A stretch of 25,966 nt of DNA from a candidate division TA06 bacterium SM23_40 (lineage in GTDB: Bacteria > LJUI01 > SM1-40), in NCBI GenBank assembly GCA_001303705.1, contig LJUI01000044.1:1-25966 (forward strand), written 5' to 3'. This document shows positions 5,344-24,761 of the stretch, in pieces; the stretch's first letter is position 1, and each line of letters opens with the position of its first letter. Made by a program: the position numbers and the translations under genes. The notes under the pieces were generated by a model. It saw nothing but the letters and a program-made list of their open reading frames with translations. It did no database searches and was not told the origin of the DNA.

Positions 5344-5767
5344 TTCAGTCGCAGCGCGGCATTCGCGCCCCGCGTCAGTGGGCCATGGCGGATATGCTCC
5401 GACGCGGCGTCTCGGTGCAACTCTTTCGGTGCTACTTTCGAAGGGCGCACCGGCCGGCCAGAAGTCGGAAGCGCCGCCGCGGCACCAGTCCTCCTCAGGC
5501 GGAGGCCAATATAATCTACCATGACCGGCAGGCCGGCACAAACGATTGTCAGTGGGCCGTCCCCCTGTGGCACCGGGCAGGCCCACACTGGCACTCGAGC
5601 TCGACTTCGGGCGGGATCTCCGCCGCGTGACCTCCGGCCGGTCTCTATAGCTGCAGAACACCAATATCGCTCCAAACTTGCGCTGCTTCCGGCCTCGGCA
5701 CGGGGACGGACCCGAACAGGTTTACCGGGCCGGCCCGCGCCCCAGAGCGAAACTCCGGCTTTTTTCC
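5344..5767. other. Intergenic stretch between divergent tolC operon and amidotransferase gene
   Basis: No gene is supported. Long open frames here are products of high GC and lack ribosome-binding sites. Two small things are visible: an 11-bp direct repeat GTCAGTGGGCC at 5374-5384 and 5548-5558, and a 12-bp palindrome CGGGCCGGCCCG at 5726-5737 followed about 20 bases later by a run of six Ts. Neither is strong enough to name as a terminator or small RNA. Confidence 0.4.
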
Positions 5768-5797
5768 TTGATTTTGTGCCCAAAGCTAGTGTATCAT
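5768..5797 (+). promoter_or_regulatory. Sigma70-like promoter for the amidotransferase-peptidase pair
   Basis: TTGATT (-35, 5768-5773) and TATCAT (-10, 5792-5797) are 18 bases apart, giving a start near 5804 and a leader of about 60 bases. The -10 is preceded by GTG, a context shared with the promoters at 15945 and 20962. Confidence 0.6.
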
Positions 5798-5863
5798 AGG
5801 GCATGTCGAGCCGGGCAGTCCATCGAAATGCGATTCTGTAGGTACGAGCCTCAGGAGGAGACA

Positions 5864-7225
5864 GTGATCCTATTTCTTTCCTTCTTAATAGAGATCCTGG
5901 TCCTCACCGGCCTTCCGCCGGCCCAGGATGCCGCGTTTGCCGGTCCGCTGCTGAGCGCCGACCCCCTGACAATGGCTCACACCCCAACTTCAGACCAAAG
6001 CGACAACTGCCGCATGTGGGGCCTGATATCGGACAGTGTCCCGGACAGCATCATCATCAACCATCTCATCAATGACACCAACTCCCTCAAGAACCTCTCC
6101 CAGGAAAACCATGTGGACGGATGGGGAATCGCCTACTATCAAGAGTACGGCGATTCGGTCGTATTCGCCAGGGGCATGGAGAGGGCGTACACGGATAGTA
6201 CCTACGACAGCCTCGTCGTGTCCATGGAGGAGAATAAGCCGCAGATCGCGCTCGCTCACGTGAGACTCTGCTCGAGCGGGTGCTGCGAGCACGGTATGGA
6301 GACGATCGATGACCCGCATCCGTTCATTCGGCACAAGAATGGCCGTGATTGGTCGTTCGAACACAACGGCCTCGTCTCCGTCGAACGGCTCAAAGAAGTG
6401 ATAGGAGAGGAGTATCTCCTCAACAATCCTCCGGACTGTTCAGGAGTGTGCCCGCCTCCGGAAAACCAGAACTGCGATAGCGAATACCTGTTCCTGCTCC
6501 TGCTGAAGCATATCGAGGAGAATAACTGGAATACTCTGGACGGGATTGTGGAAGCGATCGATACACTCATCGCTGCCGGTGAAACGGGATATATGAATTT
6601 CGTGATGAGCGACGGGGAAAACCTCTGGGCGTTTCGCAAAGGGGGCCCCATCCATACGTTGTACTATCAGTACAATCCGGAAGAGCACTGGACAGTCGCT
6701 GTTTCTCACTATACCGGCGCTGCACAGGAAGAGTGGGTATGGGTCTGGAACGGCCAGCTGCTCGTCCTCCACAGCAACCAGGAACCGGAGATCATCATGA
6801 TCGGCGGCGCAGAGGTCATCCTCGATGACGCTGATCCGGGGTTTGTCACCATCTCCGGGAAGTGGCTCCACGGATATCATCCCAACGCCTGCTACGGCCA
6901 CGCCAGGTACAATGGGCCCGGGACAGGACGGGAACGGGCGGGCTGGCGGATGGATGGTATCGTCCCGCCCGGTGTATACGAGGTCTGGGTGTGGAAATTC
7001 GAACACGATTACATGCATCTCATGGCGACCGACGCCCGGTTCAAGGTCGTCCACAGAGATGGGATCTCCGAGTGGATCCTGGTCGACCAGTCTCAACCAG
7101 GGCATGAGTGGATATACCTCGGCACCTATGCATTCGATGACAGCCATATCCAGGGCGTCTTGCTGACCGATAATCCCGGCGGCCACGTGATCGCCGATGC
7201 GATAAAGGTCGTATACGTAGAGTGA
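5864..7225 (+). CDS. Exported class II glutamine amidotransferase (YafJ/GATase_4 type) with golvesin-like C-terminal domain
   Basis: The start is GTG at 5864, five bases after AGGAGG, giving 453 residues; it places a hydrophobic signal segment (2-17) and a possible cleavage site after A26 at the N-terminus. Residues 49-310 match the YafJ-type class II (Ntn) amidotransferase domain. Cys49 is followed by RMWGL, as in the MCxLxG start of the family. The domain then shows DGWGIAYY, the AHVR motif, [14 protein letters not shown] (H167-N168-G169, oxyanion site) and a DSE..F..LL motif. In known members the catalytic Cys is the mature N-terminus, so a pro-segment of about 22 residues should be removed after export. 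Residues 317-453 form a golvesin/Xly-like beta domain nearly the same as the end of the next gene product. Such enzymes hydrolyse glutamine or related amides; the substrate outside the cytoplasm is unknown. Family assignment is firm, export is inferred. Confidence 0.87.
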
Positions 7226-7295
7226 GGAAGGCAGAAATACCCCGCAGAGCGGTTATTGTGGGGAGAAAGAACAGCTCCAGAGAAAGGAGAGAGAA

Positions 7296-9944
7296 GTGAT
7301 GTCGAGGGATGGGATGGTAGCAGGTATTCTCATCGGCACACTCGTTGTGCTGATGGCAGGTCTTTGTGGAAGTGCGGGCGGCACCAGCAGCGCCGTCGGC
7401 GAGCCTGAGCAGGGTTTCGAGCCGCCGGGCCCCATAAAGGACCCGCCGGCCTACTTCGACCTGCGCGATGTCGGAGGCGAGAACTACGTCACCTCGGTCA
7501 AGACCCAGCAGGGAGGTACCTGCTGGACTCACGGCGTGATGGGCGCGATTGAGGGAAATCTTCTCATGACCGGAGCCTGGGAGGCGGCCGGGGAGGAGGG
7601 CGAACCCAATCTGGCGGAGTATCACCTCGACTGGTGGAACGGGTTCAACACGTTCAACAACGACGACGACCCGGGCGGCGGCGGTCTCGAAGTCCACATG
7701 GGGGGCGACTACCTGGTCTCTTCGGCATATCTCACGCGGAGTGAGGGCGCGGTGCGGGAGATCGACGGTCAATCCTATGCCACGCCTCCGGACAGGTGGC
7801 TTCCGAGCTTTCACTACTACTACGTGCGGGATATCGAGTGGTTCGTCGCCGGGCCGGATCTGAGCAACATCGACACGATCAAGAACAAAATCATGGCTGA
7901 GGGTGTCTTGGGGACATCGATGTGTTATGACAACGCGTTCATGTCCAATTACATACACTATCAGCCGCCGAGCAGCACCCTCGATCCCAACCATGCGATC
8001 GCCATTGTGGGATGGGATGACACGAAGGTGACGCAGGCGCCATATCCTGGTGCGTGGATCTGCAAGAACAGCTGGGGCATTGACTGGGGTCTGGATGGAT
8101 ATTTCTGGATCTCGTACTACGACAAGTACTGTTGTCAGCACCCCGAGATGGGCGCGATCTCTTTCCAGAACGTCGAGCCCCTCGGATACGACCGGATCTA
8201 CTACCACGACTACCATGGATGGCGCGACACGTTGGAGGATTACACGGAAGCATTCAATGCGTTCGTCGCCGAGGGAGACGAACTGCTGAACGGGGTCAGT
8301 TTCTATGTCGCGGCGGACAGTGTCGACTACACGGTCAAGGTCTATGACCGGTACGAGAGCGGCGAACTCCTCGATGAACTCGCCTCGAAGTCCGGCACGA
8401 CCGGCTACACGGGATTCCACACGATAGACCTCGATACGACAGTCCCGCTCACAGAAGGGGATGACTTCTACATCTACCTGCAACTCTCGGCCGGCGGACA
8501 TCCCTATGACCGCACGAGTGATGTCCCCGTCCTGCTCGGTGCGAAGTATCGAGTGATTGTGGAGTCGGCATCCGAGCCCGGCCAGAGCTACTACCGTGAC
8601 GGATCGCACTGGCTCGATCTCTATGACCTCAACGATACGGCAAACTTCTGCATCAAGGGCCTGGTCGCGCCTCCTCTTCGATTCCGCTACCCGGACGGCC
8701 TGCCCGAGTACGTGGAACCGGGGAATCCCGTTACGATCACCGTGCAGATCGAAGAGGTTGCCGATACGTATGTATCGGGGACGGGACTGATCCACTATCG
8801 CTACGATGCTGGCGAGTTCCTCACCTCATACCTGGTGCACCAGGGCGGCGACCTGTACGAGGCGACCCTGCCGGCGCCGAGCTGCACGGATACGCCGGAG
8901 TTCTACTTCAGCGCCGCGGCCGCGATCGCCGGAGTGGTGTACGACCCGCCTGATGCCCCGACAACGACCTACGCCGCGCTTGTCGGCTGGCTCGCCCGGG
9001 TCTTCCACGATAACTTCGAGGAGGATCTCGGCTGGACTGTGGAGAACGATCCCTACCTCACCGATGGTGCGTGGGAGCGCGGCGTGCCCGCAGGCGGTGG
9101 CGAGCGCGGAGATCCGCCGACCGACTACGATGGTTCGGGCAAGTGCTATCTCACCGACAATCAGTATGGCAACTCCGATGTCGACGGTGGGATCACATGG
9201 CTGATCTCGCCGACGCTCGACCTGAGCATGGGGCTCGATGCCGAGATCGAATACGCTCTCTGGTATACGAACTACTTCGGATCTGCTCCCAACGCCGACT
9301 ACTTCAAGGTCTATGTCTCGAACAACAACGGTGCCGAGTGGATACTGGCCGACACCTTCGGGCCGCACACGTTCCCCGGCTGGTATGTCCACAGCTTCAT
9401 GGTCGGTGATTTCGTGACGCCGACCGATCAGGTGAAGGTGCGATTCGAGGCGTCAGATCTTGCTGAACCGTCTGTGGTCGAAGCGGGTATCGATGCATTC
9501 TCCGCCTCCGTCCACATGTGCGATGCGTTCATCGTCGACAACGCCGAGCCCGAGTTCCTCGTTCTCGCGGGGAACTGGAATACCGGAACCCACGCCAATG
9601 CGCATGAGGGCAATGCCCGGTTCACCGGGCCGGGTACGGGAAGCAAGCGAGCCGGCTGGAGGGTCGATACCGCCGTCGTTCCCGGCGTATATGATGTGTA
9701 CGTCTGGAAGTTCGAGCACCAGTATCTCAATCAGATGGCGACGAATGCCCACTACAAGGTCCGCGACAGAAACGGCGTATCCGGCTGGATCCTGATCGAC
9801 CAGTCTACTCCGGGCAATGAGTGGGTCTATCTCGGAACGTTCGAGTTCGATAACAGCAGCTCTCAGGGGATCCTGATCACCGACAATGCGAACGGCCACG
9901 TGATCGCTGACGCGGTGAAGTTGTCGTATGTAGAGCCATACTGA
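7296..9944 (+). CDS. Exported papain-like (C1) cysteine peptidase with lectin-like, jelly-roll and golvesin-like domains
   Basis: An 882-residue secreted protease. The start is GTG 7296 or the adjoining ATG 7299; AAGGAG lies 6 or 9 bases upstream. Residues 8-25 are a signal peptide. The C1 domain (about 50-290) has Q71/Q72 with GGTCW (Cys76 nucleophile), NHAIAIVGW (His233) and KNSWG (Asn258): the complete papain triad in order. Residues 294-457 resemble the lectin-like domain that follows such peptidases in bacteria and archaea. A beta-sandwich of about 100 residues follows. Residues 571-740 (starting DNFEEDLGW) look like a MAM/choice-of-anchor-J jelly roll. Residues 743-882 are a golvesin-like domain closely similar to the end of the upstream amidotransferase. 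The gap between the two genes is 70 bp with no promoter seen, so they are probably co-transcribed. There is no obvious inhibitory pro-domain. Role: probably extracellular protein degradation. Confidence 0.9.
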
Positions 9945-10313: not shown

Positions 10314-13300
10314 TCACTCCGTGCTCAATCTTCTGTACCAATAGACCGAGAGCGCAATCGTCAGGAGAATCGCCAGAATCGCCCCTGGAATGGCCGCGGG
10401 ATGGGCGTTCACGATACCCTGTCTCAGCATACCGAGGATGGCGACGGACGCCATCGCCAGCGGGACGAGTGCCAGCTGGAACCGAAAAATCAATACGTAA
10501 AGAAAGAGGAGCACGACTCCGCTTACGATCCCCGAAACCAGCCAGAAGGGTACGCTATCTGCAGAACGGCCGGCCATGACGAGGGCCGCGAAGATGAGCA
10601 CAATGGCGAACGGTATTCTTCTTCTCGACCATCCCTCTGTGGAACGATCCACGACAGTGAATATCAGCAGAAAGAAGACGGTAACCAGAACGAACTGTCC
10701 GAGCGGCTCAATGGCTGAGCCAATGATCGGGATGTAGCTCCCCAACGCGCCATACTCCGCCCAGAACGGCTCCAGCGATGGCTCGAATCTCATGACCAGA
10801 GCCTGTATGCCGGCGATCAGAGCTCCCACCGAGAAGCCCAGCCACAGGCCGCCAGGCCCGCGCACAGGACTCCCCTCCCTCTTCCACTTCTGGATGAACC
10901 CGAGAACGAGCGCGAGACCACCGGCAAGCAGCAGCGCCATCACCACAAAGAAGGCCAGCGCGGTGAAGGCCTGGTTCGACAGGGGCTGTGCCGTGGAAAA
11001 CTGAGCCACGGTAGAAGGCCAATCGTTGATGAATCCAAATGCCGCCACAACGAAGAAGAGCACCGAGAACGTGACGAAGTCACCAACGGAGAAGGTCCGA
11101 CGACTCCATCCAACGATCGCACTCCCCACTCCGGCTGCAATCACCACGATCATCAGTGTGGTACAGAGCGTCTGGACGACGAGGCGAGTTACATTCCTCT
11201 GGTTACGCTCCTGTCGGGCCCATTCCTCCGGAACGTGGACATATCGATAGGAGTCGACCACCTCGGATCCGGCGATCTCCACCGCAAGCCGCGCCTCACC
11301 CTCCTCCAACAGATAGCTGAGGGTATCTGCGAACGTGAACAGCCAATCTGTACGCGCAGGAAGCTTGGATGGAACTGACGAAACCTCTTTGAGCATTCCT
11401 GCATCAAGCCCGTAGGTCTCGGCAAGGACCGCGTGAGCCATCCCCCGCGCTTCGTCCTCAGGCAGAGTCGCTCCTGCCCTCGCCTCGGGCAGCTGATGGC
11501 GGAATCTCGTCACCTCCCCTTCTCCCACAATGAAGACCCGGTACTCCTCAGCCCGCTCTTCCACGTCTCCCTCGAAGCGCACATACCGAACCCTCCACCG
11601 GGGCGGGGTGAGGTAGCTCCCCATCAGAGCGGCATAGTCTTCTCTCCCGCCGGTCTGCCAGACAAAGCGATCCTCCTGATCTGGTTGAGCCTGGACGTGG
11701 CTGAGTGCCTGCCACGATTCTGCCAGTTCAATGCCACGCCCGGCGAGCGTCTCTCGAGCCAGTTCCTTTGCGCCGGAACGACCCACGGTCAGGGAGGGCG
11801 CGTAGTTCTGGAAGTCTGAGGCGAAGAACCAGATGACGAGGCCCACCGCTCCCCCCACCAGCAGCAGGCGGATCGCCCGCGGGCTGAGGGCAGGCAGTTC
11901 AACGGGTTTCGCCTCCACCGGCACAGGCTCCTCTCTCGCCGGCGGCTGCCAAGATCGGTTATAGTCCTCTTCCTTGAGCCGACTCCACTCTCCCCTCCTG
12001 AGCCGTGCGCCGATGATCACCCACAGAGGAACGAGCGTCAGGATCACCACCAACGCCTTGTCGATCCAAACACCCGGGGCCGAGGAGACGAAGAGCGGCA
12101 GTCCGATATACCCGACGTCGATCACGAAATGCGAGATGATCGCCGGGACAAGGCCGAAGTACAGGTATATCGCGCCGAAGGCCAACGACGGGATGATCAG
12201 CTCAACCACGCGTGCATAGGCGGGTTGCTGCGGATAGTTGGCATGGCCCGTCCCGAAGATGAGGGCCTGAACGATGAATGCTCCGATGATCCAGGCCCGG
12301 CGATGGCCGAGCCGCTGTCCGATGAGCGCTGCCCCTGCGATTGGAATCGCGCGGAACAAGCACTCCTCCAGAAAGCCGGCCCGGAGTGAAATTGCGACGG
12401 ATGTGAGCCAGGGGAAATGTGTGGCGAGCACATCGGGCTCGAACAAAGTAGCAGATGGCGTCCACCATCCGAGCGCTCTATTGGCGAAGGCGTACAGCGC
12501 GACATCAAACGCACCGAACAACGCTACCATCAGAAGGCCGCCGGTCGTTTGCCCGAGCACAGTGGGGGAATTCGCCACGCCCGGTGACCACGATCGCCAG
12601 AGCCGGACGTGGTGCGGGAATGCCTTGCGGGAGAGCGACTCGGCGGCCATGAACACCACCGTGAGCAGGGCAGCAAACCCGATGAAGTTGATGAGCAGCC
12701 GCGCGATCCTCTGCAGCCAGAACCCCTGTGAAGAGAGTGCGGTATCGTAGTTCATCCAGGCCAGCGGCCAGTAGTTGATGACGACGAGAACGTGGAGAAA
12801 GGCAATGAATAGGCCCCAGAGAAGCGGCTGGCGCCAGACGACCCAGCGCCCCCGGAGCAACAGCAGGAGTCCGATGACACAACCGCCGAGCACGTAGAGA
12901 ATGGCCGTCGCAAGGAGGGAGACAGCTGAAATCGTATTGTTGGCGGAGCGCATCTCCTCGTACCGGCGCGAAAACGCCTCCGGGATCTTGACGAAGTGAG
13001 TGAGCTCCGTGAGTCGATCGCCACCGACCACGAGGCGAAGGCGGTACCGACCCTCCCCGATCTGCACATCAGATCGTTCGTATACGAATGTGTGGTCGAT
13101 CCGTCCCCCGGGCCGGACCTCCTGAGACTCCTCCACCATCTCATACGCCGCCAGATCGATCTGCCACCACTCGCGAGCTGTCATCTCTGCGACCGCGCGT
13201 GCCGAATCGCCGGGGAGAGTTGCCCCGGGTTCATCTTCCGGCAGCGTCTCGACAAATCCATAGGGCTCGCCGTTCGGCGTGAACCGGACGAGCGTCTCGT

Positions 13301-13637
13301 TCGTCTCCCCCTCCTTGAAGAGGCGGACACGCCACGTGTACGGGACGTACAGCCCTTCGGCTATCAGCTGCCTGAAGGCATCAGTACCGCCGGCCTCGAG
13401 CTCCACGAAGTTCTGCACTCGACTATCGAGCTGGAATGAGGCAGCCTGCCGGAACCCTTCCGGTCCCCACCCATGCTGGCGAGCCAGCTCTCCTGAGGAC
13501 TCGAGTGCCATCTCGCGGTTCATGTCGAGATCGAGCGTCACGATGGGGTACGCCACTGCGAAGTACCGGACGGCGAAGATGACACTCCCGATAGCGAGCA
13601 GCACAAACACGACCCAGACGACCGGTTTTCTGAACAT
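10314..13637 (-). CDS. Large CPBP-family intramembrane protease with internally duplicated architecture
   Basis: The start is set at ATG 13637, with AAGGAG seven bases upstream, giving 1107 residues; a further-upstream in-frame start has no signal. Layout: transmembrane anchor (6-27), soluble domain A (about 34-250), a bundle of hydrophobic helices holding the CPBP (CAAX protease/bacteriocin-processing, Abi) core, a Pro-rich cytoplasmic linker, another transmembrane helix, soluble domain B (about 616-830), then a second helical bundle to the C-terminus. All three catalytic motifs are present once: EExxxR (E424, E425, R429), FxxxH (F461, H465) and HxxxD (H503, D507). Domains A and B are homologous (LPE...GATLP.D.AR in both), and the flanking helices also align (INYWP with INDWP). 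The second half therefore looks like a duplicated copy without the catalytic core. Typical CPBP proteins have 200-300 residues. Substrate unknown. Confidence 0.87.
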   Translation of the reverse strand: MFRKPVVWVVFVLLAIGSVIFAVRYFAVAYPIVTLDLDMNREMALESSGELARQHGWGPEGFRQAASFQLDSRVQNFVELEAGGTDAFRQLIAEGLYVPYTWRVRLFKEGETNETLVRFTPNGEPYGFVETLPEDEPGATLPGDSARAVAEMTAREWWQIDLAAYEMVEESQEVRPGGRIDHTFVYERSDVQIGEGRYRLRLVVGGDRLTELTHFVKIPEAFSRRYEEMRSANNTISAVSLLATAILYVLGGCVIGLLLLLRGRWVVWRQPLLWGLFIAFLHVLVVINYWPLAWMNYDTALSSQGFWLQRIARLLINFIGFAALLTVVFMAAESLSRKAFPHHVRLWRSWSPGVANSPTVLGQTTGGLLMVALFGAFDVALYAFANRALGWWTPSATLFEPDVLATHFPWLTSVAISLRAGFLEECLFRAIPIAGAALIGQRLGHRRAWIIGAFIVQALIFGTGHANYPQQPAYARVVELIIPSLAFGAIYLYFGLVPAIISHFVIDVGYIGLPLFVSSAPGVWIDKALVVILTLVPLWVIIGARLRRGEWSRLKEEDYNRSWQPPAREEPVPVEAKPVELPALSPRAIRLLLVGGAVGLVIWFFASDFQNYAPSLTVGRSGAKELARETLAGRGIELAESWQALSHVQAQPDQEDRFVWQTGGREDYAALMGSYLTPPRWRVRYVRFEGDVEERAEEYRVFIVGEGEVTRFRHQLPEARAGATLPEDEARGMAHAVLAETYGLDAGMLKEVSSVPSKLPARTDWLFTFADTLSYLLEEGEARLAVEIAGSEVVDSYRYVHVPEEWARQERNQRNVTRLVVQTLCTTLMIVVIAAGVGSAIVGWSRRTFSVGDFVTFSVLFFVVAAFGFINDWPSTVAQFSTAQPLSNQAFTALAFFVVMALLLAGGLALVLGFIQKWKREGSPVRGPGGLWLGFSVGALIAGIQALVMRFEPSLEPFWAEYGALGSYIPIIGSAIEPLGQFVLVTVFFLLIFTVVDRSTEGWSRRRIPFAIVLIFAALVMAGRSADSVPFWLVSGIVSGVVLLFLYVLIFRFQLALVPLAMASVAILGMLRQGIVNAHPAAIPGAILAILLTIALSVYWYRRLSTE

Positions 13638-13748
13638 ACCGCAGCTCCTTTTTCGCGTAGGCACAGATCTGCTGCAGCAAGCACCGAGAAGATCGATCGA
13701 TTTGCCACCGTGATCAGGTATCGATCGGTAGCAGGAAATGACCTGGTC

Positions 13749-13777
13749 AGTACAAGACATCTCTGCCCCTTTGTCAA
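13749..13777 (-). promoter_or_regulatory. Sigma70-like promoter for the CPBP protease gene
   Basis: On the minus strand a perfect TTGACA -35 (13772-13777) is 17 bases from TGTACT (13749-13754, four of six matches to TATAAT). The leader to the ATG at 13637 would be about 105 bases. Confidence 0.6.
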
Positions 13778-14108
13778 CAGTCTTTCTCCCAACACCCGGG
13801 TCCATCAGCAACACTGGAAGATCGTTACAAGATGGGATTTCTTTCGACAGGGGAAGACAGACTATGATCGAAGCGGTCAACGCGGTTTCCAGCGAGGACA
13901 GGGACGCCAGAAATGGCGGCGACCCGGGTCGCGTTGCCGCCCGGGTCGCTCATGTGGCGCTATATCACTTTCCCGGCCATCGTTGCTACGGCAAAACTGG
14001 CTACAGTGCCTGTATCATTCCTCGAGCTTCTTCGCTACGATACCGTCACTGCCCGAACCGTCCGCACATCTGGCCGCCTGCTCTGCTCAGTAACCGAAAA
14101 GCACTACC
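13778..14108. other. Intergenic stretch with a GC palindrome
   Basis: This lies between the stop of the Ycf48-like gene (-) and the CPBP promoter (-). No gene is supported. A strong inverted repeat lies at 13919-13949: GCGACCCGGG (13919-13928) and CCCGGGTCGC (13940-13949) with an 11-base loop. The left arm is itself the start of a perfect 14-bp palindrome, GCGACCCGGGTCGC (13919-13932). There is no T-run, so it could be a weak terminator for the propeller gene or a protein-binding site. Confidence 0.5.
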
Positions 14109-18485: not shown

Positions 18486-19550
18486 TTAACGCATCATTCT
18501 CCGTCCAAATGTCAGGACGAAGAGTGCGATCATGAACGCCCCGGCGAACGCCTCCATCATGGCCACATACCTGGCCCATGACGTGGCATCTGGATGCCAG
18601 TCGCCGTATCCGACGGTCGTGAACGTGATGACACTGAAGTACAGGTAGTCGAGGAAGCCCGCCCTGCCCTCGGGTACGGCTCCATCCGAACTCGGACTCA
18701 CTCCCCCCGATATCCAGTACAGGAGCCCACAGAGGACGATGAATGCGACGGCGATGCCGATCACACGGAGGGGGCGCTCGCCGTATCCGCAACTGATGTC
18801 GAAGAAGAGAAGTTCGAGCCACCTCCGGGGGTCCTTGGTGGATTTCGCCTGCCGTTGGTACCGTCGTTCGCGGAGATAGTACTCGCCCGCCCCTCCGTAG
18901 TCACCGGCCTCCTGTGCCCGTGTCTTCGCCATTCTGCACGCATCCGCACCGGCACTCGGCCAGGCGAACATCGTTCCCACCAGGTCGAGTTCCTGGAGGA
19001 ATCGTGCACGATTGAGCTGCGCAGCTCGATGGAATTCGACATCCCGAAATGAGGCGGTGCCACGGAAGGTAGCGCGGGGATAGAGAACCGATCCGTAGAA
19101 GACGGCGCGGTCGAACGAGGCTGCCCGGAAGTTCGATCTGGCGAATCCGGCCGTTCCCCTGAACGTAGCTCCCTCGAAGGAGGTCTCCAGCCAGTCGAAT
19201 GTCGCATCGAGAAACCAGACGTCCCCTTCGAACCTCGCCTCGTCGAACCAGACCCCGCGCTCGAATCGCGCCCCGAGGAATCGAGCGTCTCCGAGGAAGG
19301 TCGCGCCCCGGAACGAAGCATCCCAGCGAAAGGTGACTCCCTCGAACCCGGAGAACCCGGCGGGAAAGACACATCCGTCGAAGTGGTAGTCCGCCAGCTC
19401 TATTTTGCAGCGGACGGCGGCCTCGAATGCAGCGAGAGGCTTGGACAGAGTTGGATCGTGGAGGATGCAGAACCCCTCCTTCGATCCCTCCCATGCGGGC
19501 TCCTTGCACTCTCGCAGGTGTCTTGGATCTTTATGCTGACACCGCTCCAC
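18486..19550 (-). CDS. Pentapeptide-repeat protein fused to a two-helix K+ channel domain
   Basis: The start is taken as GTG 19550, seven bases after GGAG, giving 354 residues; a GTG at 19556 is only one base from that GGAG. The N-terminus has a likely zinc knuckle (Cys4, His6, Cys15, Cys28, His31). Residues about 55-195 are pentapeptide-type repeats of pattern A-x-F-x-x (ATFLGDARFLGARF and similar), predicted to form a right-handed four-sided beta-helix. The C-terminal 110 residues hold a transmembrane helix (PLRVIGIAVAFIVLCGLLYW), a pore loop with the full potassium filter TVGYGD (312-317) and a second helix (AFAGAFMIALFVLTFG). This is the Ion_trans_2 channel layout. It should sit in the inner membrane with the helix and zinc site in the cytoplasm, perhaps gating the pore. 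Pentapeptide-channel fusions are known but little studied. Confidence 0.9.
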   Translation of the reverse strand: MERCQHKDPRHLRECKEPAWEGSKEGFCILHDPTLSKPLAAFEAAVRCKIELADYHFDGCVFPAGFSGFEGVTFRWDASFRGATFLGDARFLGARFERGVWFDEARFEGDVWFLDATFDWLETSFEGATFRGTAGFARSNFRAASFDRAVFYGSVLYPRATFRGTASFRDVEFHRAAQLNRARFLQELDLVGTMFAWPSAGADACRMAKTRAQEAGDYGGAGEYYLRERRYQRQAKSTKDPRRWLELLFFDISCGYGERPLRVIGIAVAFIVLCGLLYWISGGVSPSSDGAVPEGRAGFLDYLYFSVITFTTVGYGDWHPDATSWARYVAMMEAFAGAFMIALFVLTFGRRMMR

Positions 19551-19673
19551 GCTCACACTCCGGAACAGTCCGATCGCTAACTCGAACGCAAGATGGCCGC
19601 TCTATCCGGAGGCGACTCGCCTGATACCTACGGGTCGCTCCTCGGGGCTCTAATCGTCTCAACGACGGGGGAC

Positions 19674-21041: not shown

Positions 21042-23537
21042 ATGACCAGCGCCTGCCGATGTGCGATGGATCTTCTGCCGGACCGAACGGTCCGGTCCCC
21101 ATGGCTCGCAGCTATCTCGGCCGGGGTCGCCCTGCTGTTAGTGCTCGCCTCGACACCCCGCATCGCAAGCGGTGAGGCGGAGCCTGCCCCAGAGGAGGCC
21201 GCCTCCTCGCTCCGGGAGCAGGCACGACGCATGTACCTCATGCCGCCCGATGTGGTGCGCGACATCGAACCCAGGACCTATTTCGGAGCCTATCTGGAGC
21301 GAGTAGAGCCCGACAGCCTCATCCTTCCGGAGGGGGTGAGGTATGAGACCGGAGTCGGGATTGACCGCGTCGTCCCCGGATCGCCTGCCGAGGAGGCGGG
21401 ATTCCGGGAGGGCGATATCATACTGAGCCTCGATCAAGAGAGATTCGGGGCCGATCCCGACGAGGCCGTGAATATCCTCTCGAAGCGGCTCAAGGAGAAG
21501 AAACCCGGCGACCGTATCCGCATCGAGTACCTGCGAGATGGACGAGTGCGCAGAGTATCCGCTCCCCTCGGGACGAGGCCGATCCTCGACATGCCGTCAA
21601 AACCTCACCCCGAACTGGCGAGCATCTTCCAGGGCCGCCGGGACCCTTCGATGGCAGAGCGCGCTGTCGAGCAGTTCGACCTCCTCGAGGAATATGCCGA
21701 GGTCGCAAGCCAGACCGCGGCCGTGGCGGCAGTCGACTACAACCACCGTCAGGTCCTGCCCGAACGGCCGAACCCGTTCCGCCTGCAGGAAGTGACCTAT
21801 CTCCTGCGCCGACCCACAGAGTTGGCTCTCGTCTCCGATGGAATCTGTCGGTCACTCGAGGACGAATTCAACACTGAGCAGCGCAACACAGCCGAACTCG
21901 TGATTCAGGCGGCGGGCCACCTGGATGAAACGGTACCCCGCCCTCCCTCGCCGCCGCGCGATCTGGGCCTGGATGGCCTCATCGGTGTGATGGAGAAATC
22001 CACCAGAATGATAGGCGAGGCGCTCGACGAGCTCACGCATGAAGAGATGGAGCTGGCCCACCGCCTTCTCCCCACGCTCCTCGACTATGAGGACGACTGG
22101 GAAGAGGCGCTGGAGGAGATCGAGGATGAAGGTGCGCGCAAGGCGGCGATCGCAGAAAAGGAGGAGGAGCTTGCCACCCTGTTTCGTGCCGCGCTGCGCG
22201 CAGACCTCGGCCGCCTGTTCGGGGCTGCCGCATACCTCAGCCAGCTCTCCGATCCCCCTGCCGCAAACCGGATCCGGGCGACGCTGGCCGATTTCCCCGC
22301 AAAACCCTTCCCCCAGATTTACGAGCAATCATTCCTCGGGGACATCCGCCTCGTCCGCGAAACGGACTTCGGACTCGTCGTCATCGGCGGTCCAGGCACC
22401 TCGGTCTACCTCGCAGATGCGGCCCTCATCGTCGATCTCGGCGGCGATGACTACTATGCCAACAACGCCGGCGGAAGCCGGCGCGAGAGCCCCTGCGCCC
22501 TTGTCCTCGATTTCGATGGGGATGATGTGTACGCCTGCGACTCGGCAATCTCGCAGGGAGCAGGTCTCCTCGGCGTGGGGATCCTCATCGACTACGAAGG
22601 GAACGACACATACTCGGCGAGGAACGATGCGCAGGCCGTCGGCCTGTTCGGCGTCGGCATGCTCATCGACCTCGCTGGTAACGACAGCTACAATGGTGAT
22701 CAATTCGTGCAGGGAGGGGGAGTCATCGGCCTCGGTCTGCTGTGCGAGGGCGAGGGAACCGATACCTATCGGGCCCACTGCTTCTCGCAGGGATTCGGCT
22801 ACGTCAAAGGGCTCGGACTGGTGCTGGAAGTCGATGGCGAGGATACGTACTCTGCGGGCTGGAAGTACGCCGATTTCCGCATACCTGACCGGGCGTTCGA
22901 CAGTATGTCGCAGGGATTCGGATTCGGCATGAGGCCGTGGGTTGTGGGCACCGGAGCCGACGGGGGCATCGGGATACTGCTCGACAGTTCGGGACACGAT
23001 GTGTACATGGGCGATTTCTTCTGTCAGGGATCGAGCTACTGGTACGCCCTCGGCATCCTCCTCGACCGGAGCGGAGCCGACCGGTACCTGTCCGGCAACT
23101 ACTCACAGGGAGCGGGAATTCACCTCTCAGTGGGAGCTCTCATCGACGAGGAGGGAGACGACCAGTATACCTGCTACGACGCCCTCTGCCAGGGCGCAGC
23201 CCACGACTGGGCCGCCGGCCTCCTCCACGACGTATCGGGGAACGATCTGTACGTCGGACACCACCTCGTGCAGGGCGGCTGCGGCACGGTCTCGATGGCG
23301 ATACTCGCCGACGGTGGAGGCGACGATACCTATGTGGCCGGCGATGTCGCGCAGAGCCAGGGAGCCGGAGTATGGCGTGACATCCGCGAGTATGGATCGA
23401 TCGGTATGCTCATCGACGGCGGCGGGGAGGACACGTATTCCGATGCACGCATCTCCAACGGCGCGACGATCACGAAAGAGACCTGGGGGATCGTCATCGA
23501 CAGCGATACGGCCTCAGGCGACGCGTATGCGGAGTGA
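21042..23537 (+). CDS. Exported PDZ-domain protein with a 26-27-residue D-x-Y repeat region
   Basis: An 831-residue protein; GGAGGAAG lies just before the ATG. A signal peptide (about 20-44) ends A-S-G before EAEP. Residues 80-178 are a PDZ domain (GVGIDRVVPGSPAEEAGFREGD and so on). Residues 190-430 are mostly helical and charged. From 465 to the end there are twelve copies of G-x-D-x-Y, the glycines at 468, 493, 520, 546, 572, 599, 651, 678, 705, 733, 760 and 795, so the spacing is 25-28 apart from one double interval (52) and one of 35. Between copies most units show a Q-G-x-G step and a G-x-G-x-L-I-D strand. I know no Pfam name for this unit. It has the look of a beta-solenoid or multi-bladed fold with acidic, possibly Ca2+-binding, turns. 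No protease catalytic residues are recognised. Own promoter; divergent from the WbqC gene. Confidence 0.85.
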   Translation: MTSACRCAMDLLPDRTVRSPWLAAISAGVALLLVLASTPRIASGEAEPAPEEAASSLREQARRMYLMPPDVVRDIEPRTYFGAYLERVEPDSLILPEGVRYETGVGIDRVVPGSPAEEAGFREGDIILSLDQERFGADPDEAVNILSKRLKEKKPGDRIRIEYLRDGRVRRVSAPLGTRPILDMPSKPHPELASIFQGRRDPSMAERAVEQFDLLEEYAEVASQTAAVAAVDYNHRQVLPERPNPFRLQEVTYLLRRPTELALVSDGICRSLEDEFNTEQRNTAELVIQAAGHLDETVPRPPSPPRDLGLDGLIGVMEKSTRMIGEALDELTHEEMELAHRLLPTLLDYEDDWEEALEEIEDEGARKAAIAEKEEELATLFRAALRADLGRLFGAAAYLSQLSDPPAANRIRATLADFPAKPFPQIYEQSFLGDIRLVRETDFGLVVIGGPGTSVYLADAALIVDLGGDDYYANNAGGSRRESPCALVLDFDGDDVYACDSAISQGAGLLGVGILIDYEGNDTYSARNDAQAVGLFGVGMLIDLAGNDSYNGDQFVQGGGVIGLGLLCEGEGTDTYRAHCFSQGFGYVKGLGLVLEVDGEDTYSAGWKYADFRIPDRAFDSMSQGFGFGMRPWVVGTGADGGIGILLDSSGHDVYMGDFFCQGSSYWYALGILLDRSGADRYLSGNYSQGAGIHLSVGALIDEEGDDQYTCYDALCQGAAHDWAAGLLHDVSGNDLYVGHHLVQGGCGTVSMAILADGGGDDTYVAGDVAQSQGAGVWRDIREYGSIGMLIDGGGEDTYSDARISNGATITKETWGIVIDSDTASGDAYAE

Positions 23538-23590: not shown

Positions 23591-24059
23591 TATTCAGGGC
23601 GCGAGCGCCCATTCGTGAGCGCCTGGCGGGATGTATGAGAGCGCAGCTATCAATTCAGATGGCAAGTGTGGCCTTCCCAGGGCACCTGAAGGGAAGTATG
23701 AGAGCGCAGCCATCAACTCAGATGGCGAGTGTGGTCCTCCCTGAACGCCTGGCGGGGAATCCGGGAGCGCGGCTATCGATTCCGATGGCAAGTGTGGCCC
23801 TCCCTGAGCGCCTGGCGGGAAGTCCGGGAGCGCGGCTATCAATTCAGATGGCACGTGCGGCCCTCCCTGAACGCCTGGCGGGGAATGCGGGAGCGCGGCC
23901 ATCAATTCAGATGGGAAGTGTGGCCCTCCCTGAACGCCTGGCGCGGAATCCGAGAGCGCGGCCATCAAATCAGATGGGAAGTGTGGCCCTCCCCGAACGC
24001 CTGGCAGGGAATGCGAGAGCGCGATTGTTCGATCAGAAGGAGATGAGCGGCCGTCCGAG
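23591..24059. repeat. Tandem array, seven units of 63 bp plus a partial unit
   Basis: Seven exact-length units start at 23619, 23682, 23745, 23808, 23871, 23934 and 23997, after a partial unit from 23591. Middle units differ at only a few positions; the last decays in its second half. Each contains ACGCCTGGCGGGGAAT, GAGCGCGGC and AAGTGTGGCCCTCCC blocks. Because 63 is divisible by three, two plus-strand frames and one minus-strand frame stay open. The longest (from ATG 23635, 161 codons of 21-residue repeats) ends in a TGA overlapping the ferredoxin ATG. It lacks a good ribosome-binding site, and unit differences are often non-synonymous, so I do not call it a gene. Confidence 0.9.
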
Positions 24060-24116
24060 AACGGGCGAGCCGCCGTCTGAGGAAGAGCGACGGGTCATCG
24101 AAGAGAGAGGATCGAC

Positions 24117-24761
24117 ATGAACGATCAACCACGCGACTGGACGCGGGAAGAGCTGGAGGCCGAGTATGTCGGCCATATGACGGTGCGGACCGTACCGGTG
24201 AATATCAGGATCGAGGCCAAACAGATGATTCTCGACCTGTCACGCATCCGCAACCTCCTGGAGAGCGCCCGCCACATCGCCGTGGAAGAGTGTGAATGTC
24301 GCCACCGCGTGCAGGGATGTGATGGGCCGCTCGATGTCTGTCTCTCGCTCAACGACGAGGCGACGGATATAGTCGATCGCGGACATGGTCAGATGATCTC
24401 ACTTTCCGAGGCGCTCCGCGTGCTCGAGCGATCACACCGAGCCGGGCTCGTTCACCTCGCCTACACGCTGGAGGGAAGCGAGGAGATCGATATCATCTGC
24501 AGTTGCTGCCCCTGCTGCTGCCATTCGCTCGCCGCCCTGGTCCGGTTCGGATATGACGGTCACATCATCCGCTCCGACATGATCGCCTCCCGCAATGATG
24601 AGGACTGCATCCGGTGCGGCACCTGCGTGGAACGCTGCAGGTTCGGCGTGTGGGAGGAAGTGAATGGAGAGGTGGTGCCGGACTTCACGAAATGCTTTGG
24701 CTGCGGCGTCTGCGTCTCAACCTGCCAGGGGAGCGCGATCGCGCTCACCCCGCGTTCCTAG
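24117..24761 (+). CDS. Ferredoxin-like protein with two 4Fe-4S motifs and a second cysteine-rich region
   Basis: A 214-residue cytoplasmic electron-transfer protein. GAGAGG lies six bases before the ATG. The C-terminal 55 residues are a standard bacterial 2[4Fe-4S] ferredoxin domain: C164-x2-C167-x2-C170-x3-C174 and C193-x2-C196-x2-C199-x3-C203. The N-terminal part adds ten more cysteines: C59, C61, C68 and C75 in an EEC-x-CR...C...C motif, and C128, C130, C131, C133, C134 and C135 in a dense CSCCPCCC cluster followed by His136. This layout occurs in ferredoxin-like proteins of anaerobic bacteria and archaea and may hold a further cluster or metal. No oxidoreductase partner gene is adjacent, so the electron donor and acceptor are unknown. 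A terminator follows the stop. The 63-bp array lies directly upstream and I see no clear promoter between them. Confidence 0.88.
   Translation: MNDQPRDWTREELEAEYVGHMTVRTVPVNIRIEAKQMILDLSRIRNLLESARHIAVEECECRHRVQGCDGPLDVCLSLNDEATDIVDRGHGQMISLSEALRVLERSHRAGLVHLAYTLEGSEEIDIICSCCPCCCHSLAALVRFGYDGHIIRSDMIASRNDEDCIRCGTCVERCRFGVWEEVNGEVVPDFTKCFGCGVCVSTCQGSAIALTPRS

Follow-up and report, generated by a model that had tools for sequence, protein, structure and literature searches.

The question raised by this locus is whether the long C-terminal repeat array encoded by ORF 21042-23537 (+) belongs to a known repeat family or fold, and what such an array would do in an exported protein. The ORF lies in the window, that is, the whole stretch of 25,966 nucleotides that was analysed, and the first-pass annotation, made from the sequence alone, had read its product as a signal peptide and a PDZ domain followed by twelve D-x-Y units of 26-27 residues, possibly an undescribed fold serving as a surface scaffold or a metal-binding module. 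The reading preferred here, to which we assign a probability of roughly 0.45, is that the array is an undescribed, widespread and exported solenoid that carries a calcium ladder and a candidate binding or catalytic ridge, with HEAT or PDZ domains as its partners.

The product is 831 aa long (Table 1). Both the N-terminal PDZ domain and the signal peptide were borne out, the former by Pfam matches and the latter by a hydrophobic N-terminus. Within the HtrA/Deg group only the PDZ part matches, no trypsin-like protease domain being found ahead of it. The segment between the PDZ domain and the repeats is probably helical, judged by its composition, and a HEAT-type paralogue fragment from the same genome aligns with the product from aa 241 onward.

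Table 1 Features of the ORF 21042-23537 product, with example HEAT genes from related loci (nucleotide positions are those of the window unless a locus is named)
Feature	Position	Strand	Basis
N-terminal export signal (hydrophobic stretch at about aa 20-40)	21042..21173	+	Sequence; hydrophobic N-terminus in homologues
PDZ domain (aa 78-180), HtrA-like, without protease domain	21273..21581	+	Pfam PF17820 E 1.1e-9, PF13180 E 1.7e-9, PF00595 E 3.2e-5, all above cut-off
Pre-module segment (about aa 196-433)	21627..22340	+	Family alignments; conserved along with the repeat module
Twelve-rung repeat module, 395 residues (about aa 434-828), predicted beta-solenoid	22341..23525	+	Repeat statistics, homologue alignments, AF2 models
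Turn A ladder, 12 D-x-x-G-x-D-x-Y turns, candidate calcium half-sites on one edge	22434..23438	+	200-unit consensus; per-rung conservation in 99 homologues
Turn A invariant Asp	aa 470, 495, 522, 548, 574, 601, 653, 680, 707, 735, 762, 797		
Long step from rung 6 to rung 7, 52 residues here, carries R631	22848..22982	+	46-55 residues in most homologues; low pLDDT in AF2
Turn B ridge R631, Y666/W667, H694, H721/D722, candidate binding or active site	22932..23207	+	Rungs 7-10, conservation in 99 homologues
Example HEAT genes directly after short-form members	L066:3318-4499, L069:2129-3133, L050:3407-4381		

The D-x-Y repetition is real. Past residue 440 the motif occurs 14 times against 2.7 expected, and none of 10,000 composition-preserving shuffles reached 14 copies (maximum 10), ruling out chance repetition as the origin of the pattern. 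Autocorrelation showed self-similarity peaks at 26-27 and about 52-55 residues in the repeat part, the N-terminal part being flat. Successive G-x-D-x-Y steps measure 25, 27, 26, 26, 27, 52, 27, 27, 28, 27 and 35 residues, so that the near-constant spacing first described holds for nine of the eleven steps (25-28) and breaks down at two long ones (52 and 35); the D680 site, reached by a step of 27, reads A-D-R-Y. The Q-G-x-G and G-x-G-x-L-I-D segments said to join the units are present, and the region originally placed at 22440-23537 needed only its limits redrawn, as the module begins about 33 residues earlier (about aa 434, nt 22341) and ends at about aa 828 (nt 23525). A unit consensus built on 200 units, each of exactly 27 residues and drawn from 41 family members, reads G-[LI]-L-[ILV]-D-x-[SAG]-G-[ND]-D-x-Y-x-[AS]-x-x-[YF]-[SAG]-Q-G-x-G-x-x-x-G, with conservation in the turn of 94% (D), 100% (G), 85% (N/D), 100% (D) and 94% (Y), and in the QG step of 77% (Q) and 74% (G). 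The consensus of the unit profile is GxLxDxxGNDxYxxxxxxQGxGxxxxx.

Searches against known families placed the module in none of them. For the repeat domain of the product, Pfam, NCBIfam, PHROGs and PDB sequences all came back without a match, and for 30 homologues there was no appreciable match in Pfam or NCBIfam and none among PDB sequences. PHROGs, queried with both the whole protein and the domain, returned matches only outside the module or at chance-level scores, and nothing convincing was found among PDB sequences with the module profile or with the unit profile. Literature searches gave no account of this repeat family. The suggestion that the repeat is undescribed is upheld at the level of a sequence family, and the module appears, by sequence comparison, to represent an exported protein family that is unnamed in the libraries searched.

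The fold, in contrast to the family, does not appear to be new. AF2 was run with two family members at 41% identity, each leading once, on alignments of these two sequences only; pTM and pLDDT were 0.73 and 69.4 with the module of ORF 21042-23537 first, and 0.78 and 71.5 with a Verrucomicrobia relative (L009) first. In both models a rung consists of two strands, with turn A spanning five residues over x-x-G-x-D and a short turn B after QGxG; confidence is moderate overall and low at the long step and the last rungs. Because the predicted beta-solenoid is a known architecture, the idea of an undescribed fold is not supported as stated. Stacked rungs along one axis, by which that architecture is recognised, are here a property of the prediction, and AF2 is known to over-predict beta-solenoids for perfect repeats (PMC11795689). 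The repeats in question are divergent and model confidence is moderate, so that a two-sided beta-solenoid is taken as likely, at about four chances in five.

Foldseek gave no match with E < 0.001 against PDB and viral models, and the Z values that follow come from a second structural aligner that only re-ranks the Foldseek list. The top long alignment for both models was to Pontibacter CsgA, a curli subunit (Z 20.6 and 22.6, rmsd > 8 Å), and another was to the HMW1 secretion domain (Z 19.0). For the Ca2+-dependent antifreeze solenoid 3p4g the alignments had Z 18.4 and 18.6, with rmsd 4.5 and 3.6; their identity of 17-19% was the highest among the matches listed. The L009 model also aligned with GH28 polygalacturonases (Z 17.8) and a GH87 glucanase (Z 14.0). 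Such Z values can, for repeats, reflect a common arrangement only. The CsgA alignment and the occurrence of glutamine about once per rung would fit a curli-like polymerising repeat whose Q-G-x-G ladders stack end to end into extracellular fibres; this explanation is very improbable, given the large rmsd to CsgA, the differences between rungs according to position, and the fusion of the module to large globular domains.

Turn A bears on the proposed metal binding. In RTX rolls the turn GGXGXD binds calcium via backbone oxygens and the Asp (PMC6891781), and in the one-sided roll of Marinomonas calcium is held at one turn only, XGTGND, the repeat of MpIBP region IV being 19-21 residues long (xGTGNDxuxuGGxuxGxux; PMC3492233). 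When turn A is numbered as in RTX, the 200 units have glycine at position 7 and Asp at position 9 in 100%, Asp at position 4 in 94% and glycine at position 5 in 13%; position 8 is [ND], and a large residue stands two positions past the Asp. Since most units lack the RTX glycine at position 5, turn A cannot be a canonical RTX turn and is better called RTX-like than RTX. Membership of the RTX family was rejected on this glycine, on the PF00353 profile and on the architecture, there being one motif per 26-27 residues as against two nine-residue motifs per RTX roll turn. PF00353 was not found at E 1 among 30 family members, nor in the genome of origin (which holds further members of the family) or 20 relatives, two control genomes being positive. 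The unit length also sets the module apart from the 19-21-residue repeat of the one-sided roll, and the unit profile matched no PDB sequence. The first-pass annotation could not match the array to RTX, yet its D-x-x-G-x-D-x-Y turn resembles an RTX half-site. On account of this resemblance the module is plausible as a candidate metal-binding unit. The module is strongly acidic (pI 4.05; family median 4.23). By analogy with RTX, the odds lean slightly towards turn A binding calcium as a stacked ladder; it may act like a one-sided RTX ladder in which the extra Asp at position 4 is a possible ligand.

The array behaves as a domain of set size. Twelve rungs and a common register are kept in nearly all homologues examined (some of whose ORFs end at contig ends, and whose start codons were assigned mechanically), including the long sixth and the long last step; D-x-Y steps in most members are about 26, 26, 27, 47-55, 27, 27, 27, 27 and 33 residues. 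Same-numbered rungs are 48% identical between proteins, whereas different-numbered rungs are 37% identical between and 38% within proteins. The retained register and the greater likeness of same-numbered rungs indicate that the twelve rungs were reached long ago and have been kept whole, and a freely expanding array is ruled out by the fixed rung number and register.

The family was found in 66 of 386 broadly sampled genomes, these 66 coming from 44 families. In one phylum (that of genome G003) the module is present in 16 of 17 genomes, and in 9/9 good assemblies, at one to three copies each, which suggests a core exported function; in another (that of G034) it is present in 4/4 genomes. One genome of the latter phylum, G386, gave seven module matches, some partial at contig ends, which points to an expansion of the family there, for the most part in the form of beta-propeller fusions. 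The genome of origin encodes further members besides ORF 21042-23537, namely a short form (contig C160) and a HEAT-fused form apparently split over the ends of two contigs (C55 and C40; loci L056 and L057). C55 breaks off inside a repeat rung and C40 begins in one, and from these break points we infer a single HEAT-type gene divided by the assembly. A separate scan of genome contigs with a single protein as query recovered one named relative, a Verrucomicrobia MAG, so that the taxonomic range from this source is thin. Spread by plasmids or phages was considered and rejected, plasmid matches being to PDZ domains only and two viral-contig scans giving no relative.

Members differ in what accompanies the module. 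Fusions to PDZ, PQQ/ACSF4 beta-propeller, AhpC-TSA, right-handed beta-helix and C-terminal HEAT repeats were seen, while many members consist of the pre-module segment and the module and nothing more. Three architectures (alone, PDZ-fused and HEAT-fused) recur across bacterial families, and on a tree of 99 modules architectures cluster across families (12 changes versus 47 in shuffles), so that the three forms have the appearance of ancient paralogues; this tree is weak in its deep branches and the placing of the ORF 21042-23537 module is unsure. A strongly hydrophobic N-terminus was found in 89/97 members versus 5/97 interior controls, consistent with a periplasmic or extracellular location, where calcium is available.

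A second link to HEAT proteins comes from gene neighbourhoods. Of 42 short-form loci, 24 have an independent HEAT-repeat ORF close to the module gene and in the same orientation; the 18 loci without one include some with little flank. Seventeen of the 24 HEAT ORFs start in an interval that runs from 145 bases ahead of the stop of the module gene to 56 bases beyond it; three lie about 680-800 bases downstream, one upstream, and three further ones downstream. Each of the 24 is homologous to the HEAT tail found in a fused form (best E from 2e-9 to 4e-75), and the three checked by Pfam were all HEAT_2. No other neighbour recurred in more than 6 loci within the roughly 2 kb of flank surveyed. The module is tied to HEAT proteins in two ways, by gene fusion in one class of members and by neighbouring genes in another.

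ORF 21042-23537 itself has no HEAT gene next to it. Just downstream is a tandem 63-bp unit (23639-24023; 6.1 copies, 85% matches), across which a frame stays open (ORF 23635-24120) and encodes a 21-residue repeat with no Pfam match; directly after this array lies an ORF (24117-24761) with two C-terminal 4Fe-4S ferredoxin motifs and a cysteine-rich middle. Elsewhere in the window, pentapeptide repeats and an ion-channel domain occur in one protein (18486-19556, minus strand; PF13576, PF07885), and two adjacent plus-strand ORFs (5678-9944) each end in a Golvesin C-terminal domain, one encoding a class-II glutamine amidotransferase-like protein and the other a papain-family protease with a lectin-like domain. 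A 1188-aa ORF (10314-13880, minus strand) has no Pfam match at E 0.001.

Conservation at turn B, on the edge opposite turn A, is confined to part of the array. Across 99 members, non-glycine residues conserved at 75% or above occur at this turn on rungs 7-11 only, rungs 1-6 keeping glycines only. R631, in the lengthened turn of rung 7, is Arg in 96/98 homologues; Y666 is kept in 95 members and W667 in 80%, H694 in 96 members and D722 in 96/99. H721 is His in 73/99, including the ORF 21042-23537 protein, and Trp in 13/15 PDZ-type members; position 750 is Asn in 76% of homologues and Val in this protein. W667, H694 and D722 each lie 13 residues ahead of the invariant Asp of their own rung, a common phase by which they would stack in a solenoid. 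R631, Y666, H694 and D722 are common to short, PDZ-, HEAT- and propeller-fused members, and this pattern, kept across architectures, argues for a ligand or active site. From its conservation, the ridge on rungs 7-10 has a somewhat better than even chance of being a functional site; that it is catalytic is doubtful.

These residues also weigh on the scaffold originally proposed. The repeats, the export signal and the interchangeable partner domains would all fit a purely structural spacer that has no site of its own and holds a PDZ or other domain off the membrane. Such arrays usually vary in repeat number, however, and here it is fixed at 12; the non-structural residues R631, Y666, H694 and D722, which occupy a single turn on four successive rungs, show conservation of 96% or more, and many members have no partner domain at all. 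A spacer is thus unlikely, and an open-ended surface scaffold became less likely on the same fixed rung number and position-specific conservation on rungs 7-10.

Arg, Tyr/Trp, His and Asp on neighbouring rungs are typical of the grooves of beta-helix enzymes. The ridge could accordingly be a catalytic groove, and the protein an enzyme whose substrate is a polysaccharide of the envelope or the extracellular space, as for glycosidases, lyases and esterases with a right-handed beta-helix; GH28 and GH87 are among the long structural matches of L009. Those matches are to generic beta-helices, and adhesin secretion domains and curli give similar Z; Pfam and NCBIfam searches with the 30 homologues gave no sequence match to any glycosidase or lyase family, and carbohydrate genes are not widely recurrent beside the family. 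We consider such an enzyme an unlikely explanation. More improbable is a transition-metal site on the ridge, in which H694, H721 and D722 would form a 2-His-1-carboxylate centre: H694 and D722 have the same phase on adjacent rungs, with H721 next to D722, but H721, mostly replaced by Trp in PDZ-type members, is not kept throughout, and a 2-His site would not be family-wide.

In the preferred reading, that of an exported calcium-ladder solenoid with a functional ridge, twelve rungs of mostly 26-27 residues are predicted to coil up as a two-sided beta-solenoid. Along one edge, stacked D-x-[SAG]-G-[ND]-D-x-Y turns would hold a calcium ladder comparable to that in the one-sided RTX roll from Marinomonas, by which the domain would fold and stiffen after export. 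On the opposite edge, R631, Y666/W667, H694 and H721/D722 would stand in a row on rungs 7-10 and may bind, and perhaps chemically alter, a ligand outside the cytoplasm. Selecting the target, or displaying it, is probably the task of the partner domains (PDZ here; HEAT, beta-propeller or thioredoxin-like elsewhere), and PDZ or HEAT domains would bring in a partner protein or a substrate. A bolder version, which we hold only tentatively and regard as rather unlikely in full, is that the calcium-laddered twelve-rung solenoid has an Arg-Tyr-His-Asp active site spread over four rungs, that the alone, PDZ and HEAT forms are old paralogues of which the first works with a separate HEAT protein, and that they constitute a new family of enzymes or receptors with a core envelope function in poorly studied phyla.

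The module is widespread (in about one genome in six of those sampled) yet unnamed in Pfam, NCBIfam and PHROGs. The finding yields a profile for annotation, residues to probe (R631, Y666, H694 and D722) and a candidate partner in the adjacent HEAT protein, and the module would serve as a natural experiment on the divergence from RTX sequence that an RTX-like calcium ladder tolerates.

Among known systems, MpIBP region IV of Marinomonas primoryensis (3p4g) resembles the predicted module in that each rung of the solenoid makes a single calcium-type turn along one edge and another kind of turn opposite. That region comprises 13 tandem, Ca2+-bound repeats of 19-21 residues (PMC3492233, PMC6891781), whereas the module has 26-27-residue rungs, a turn without glycine after the first position, no sequence match to it, a fixed set of 12 rungs, a conserved R-Y-H-D ridge and export by an N-terminal signal. 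Canonical RTX (PF00353, HemolysinCabind) shares the G-x-D core and the large hydrophobic residue two positions past the Asp; the module differs in having no nonapeptide repeat, one turn per rung and not two, and no glycine 5 in 87% of units. Right-handed beta-helix enzymes (GH28, GH87 and pectate lyases) are likewise solenoids with conserved polar residues on neighbouring rungs, with Z of 14-18 reflecting architecture only; here there is no sequence similarity to them, and the model has two strands per rung. The Knotted Solenoid (PMC13123833), also bacterial and recently described, is a beta-solenoid that is likewise preserved as a fixed whole and whose coils follow an irregular order. The accessible part of its description presents it as Brevundimonas-exclusive, nearest to pentapeptide repeats, homodimeric and tied in a trefoil knot, and mentions no D-x-Y repeat; by that description it stands apart from the twelve-rung module.
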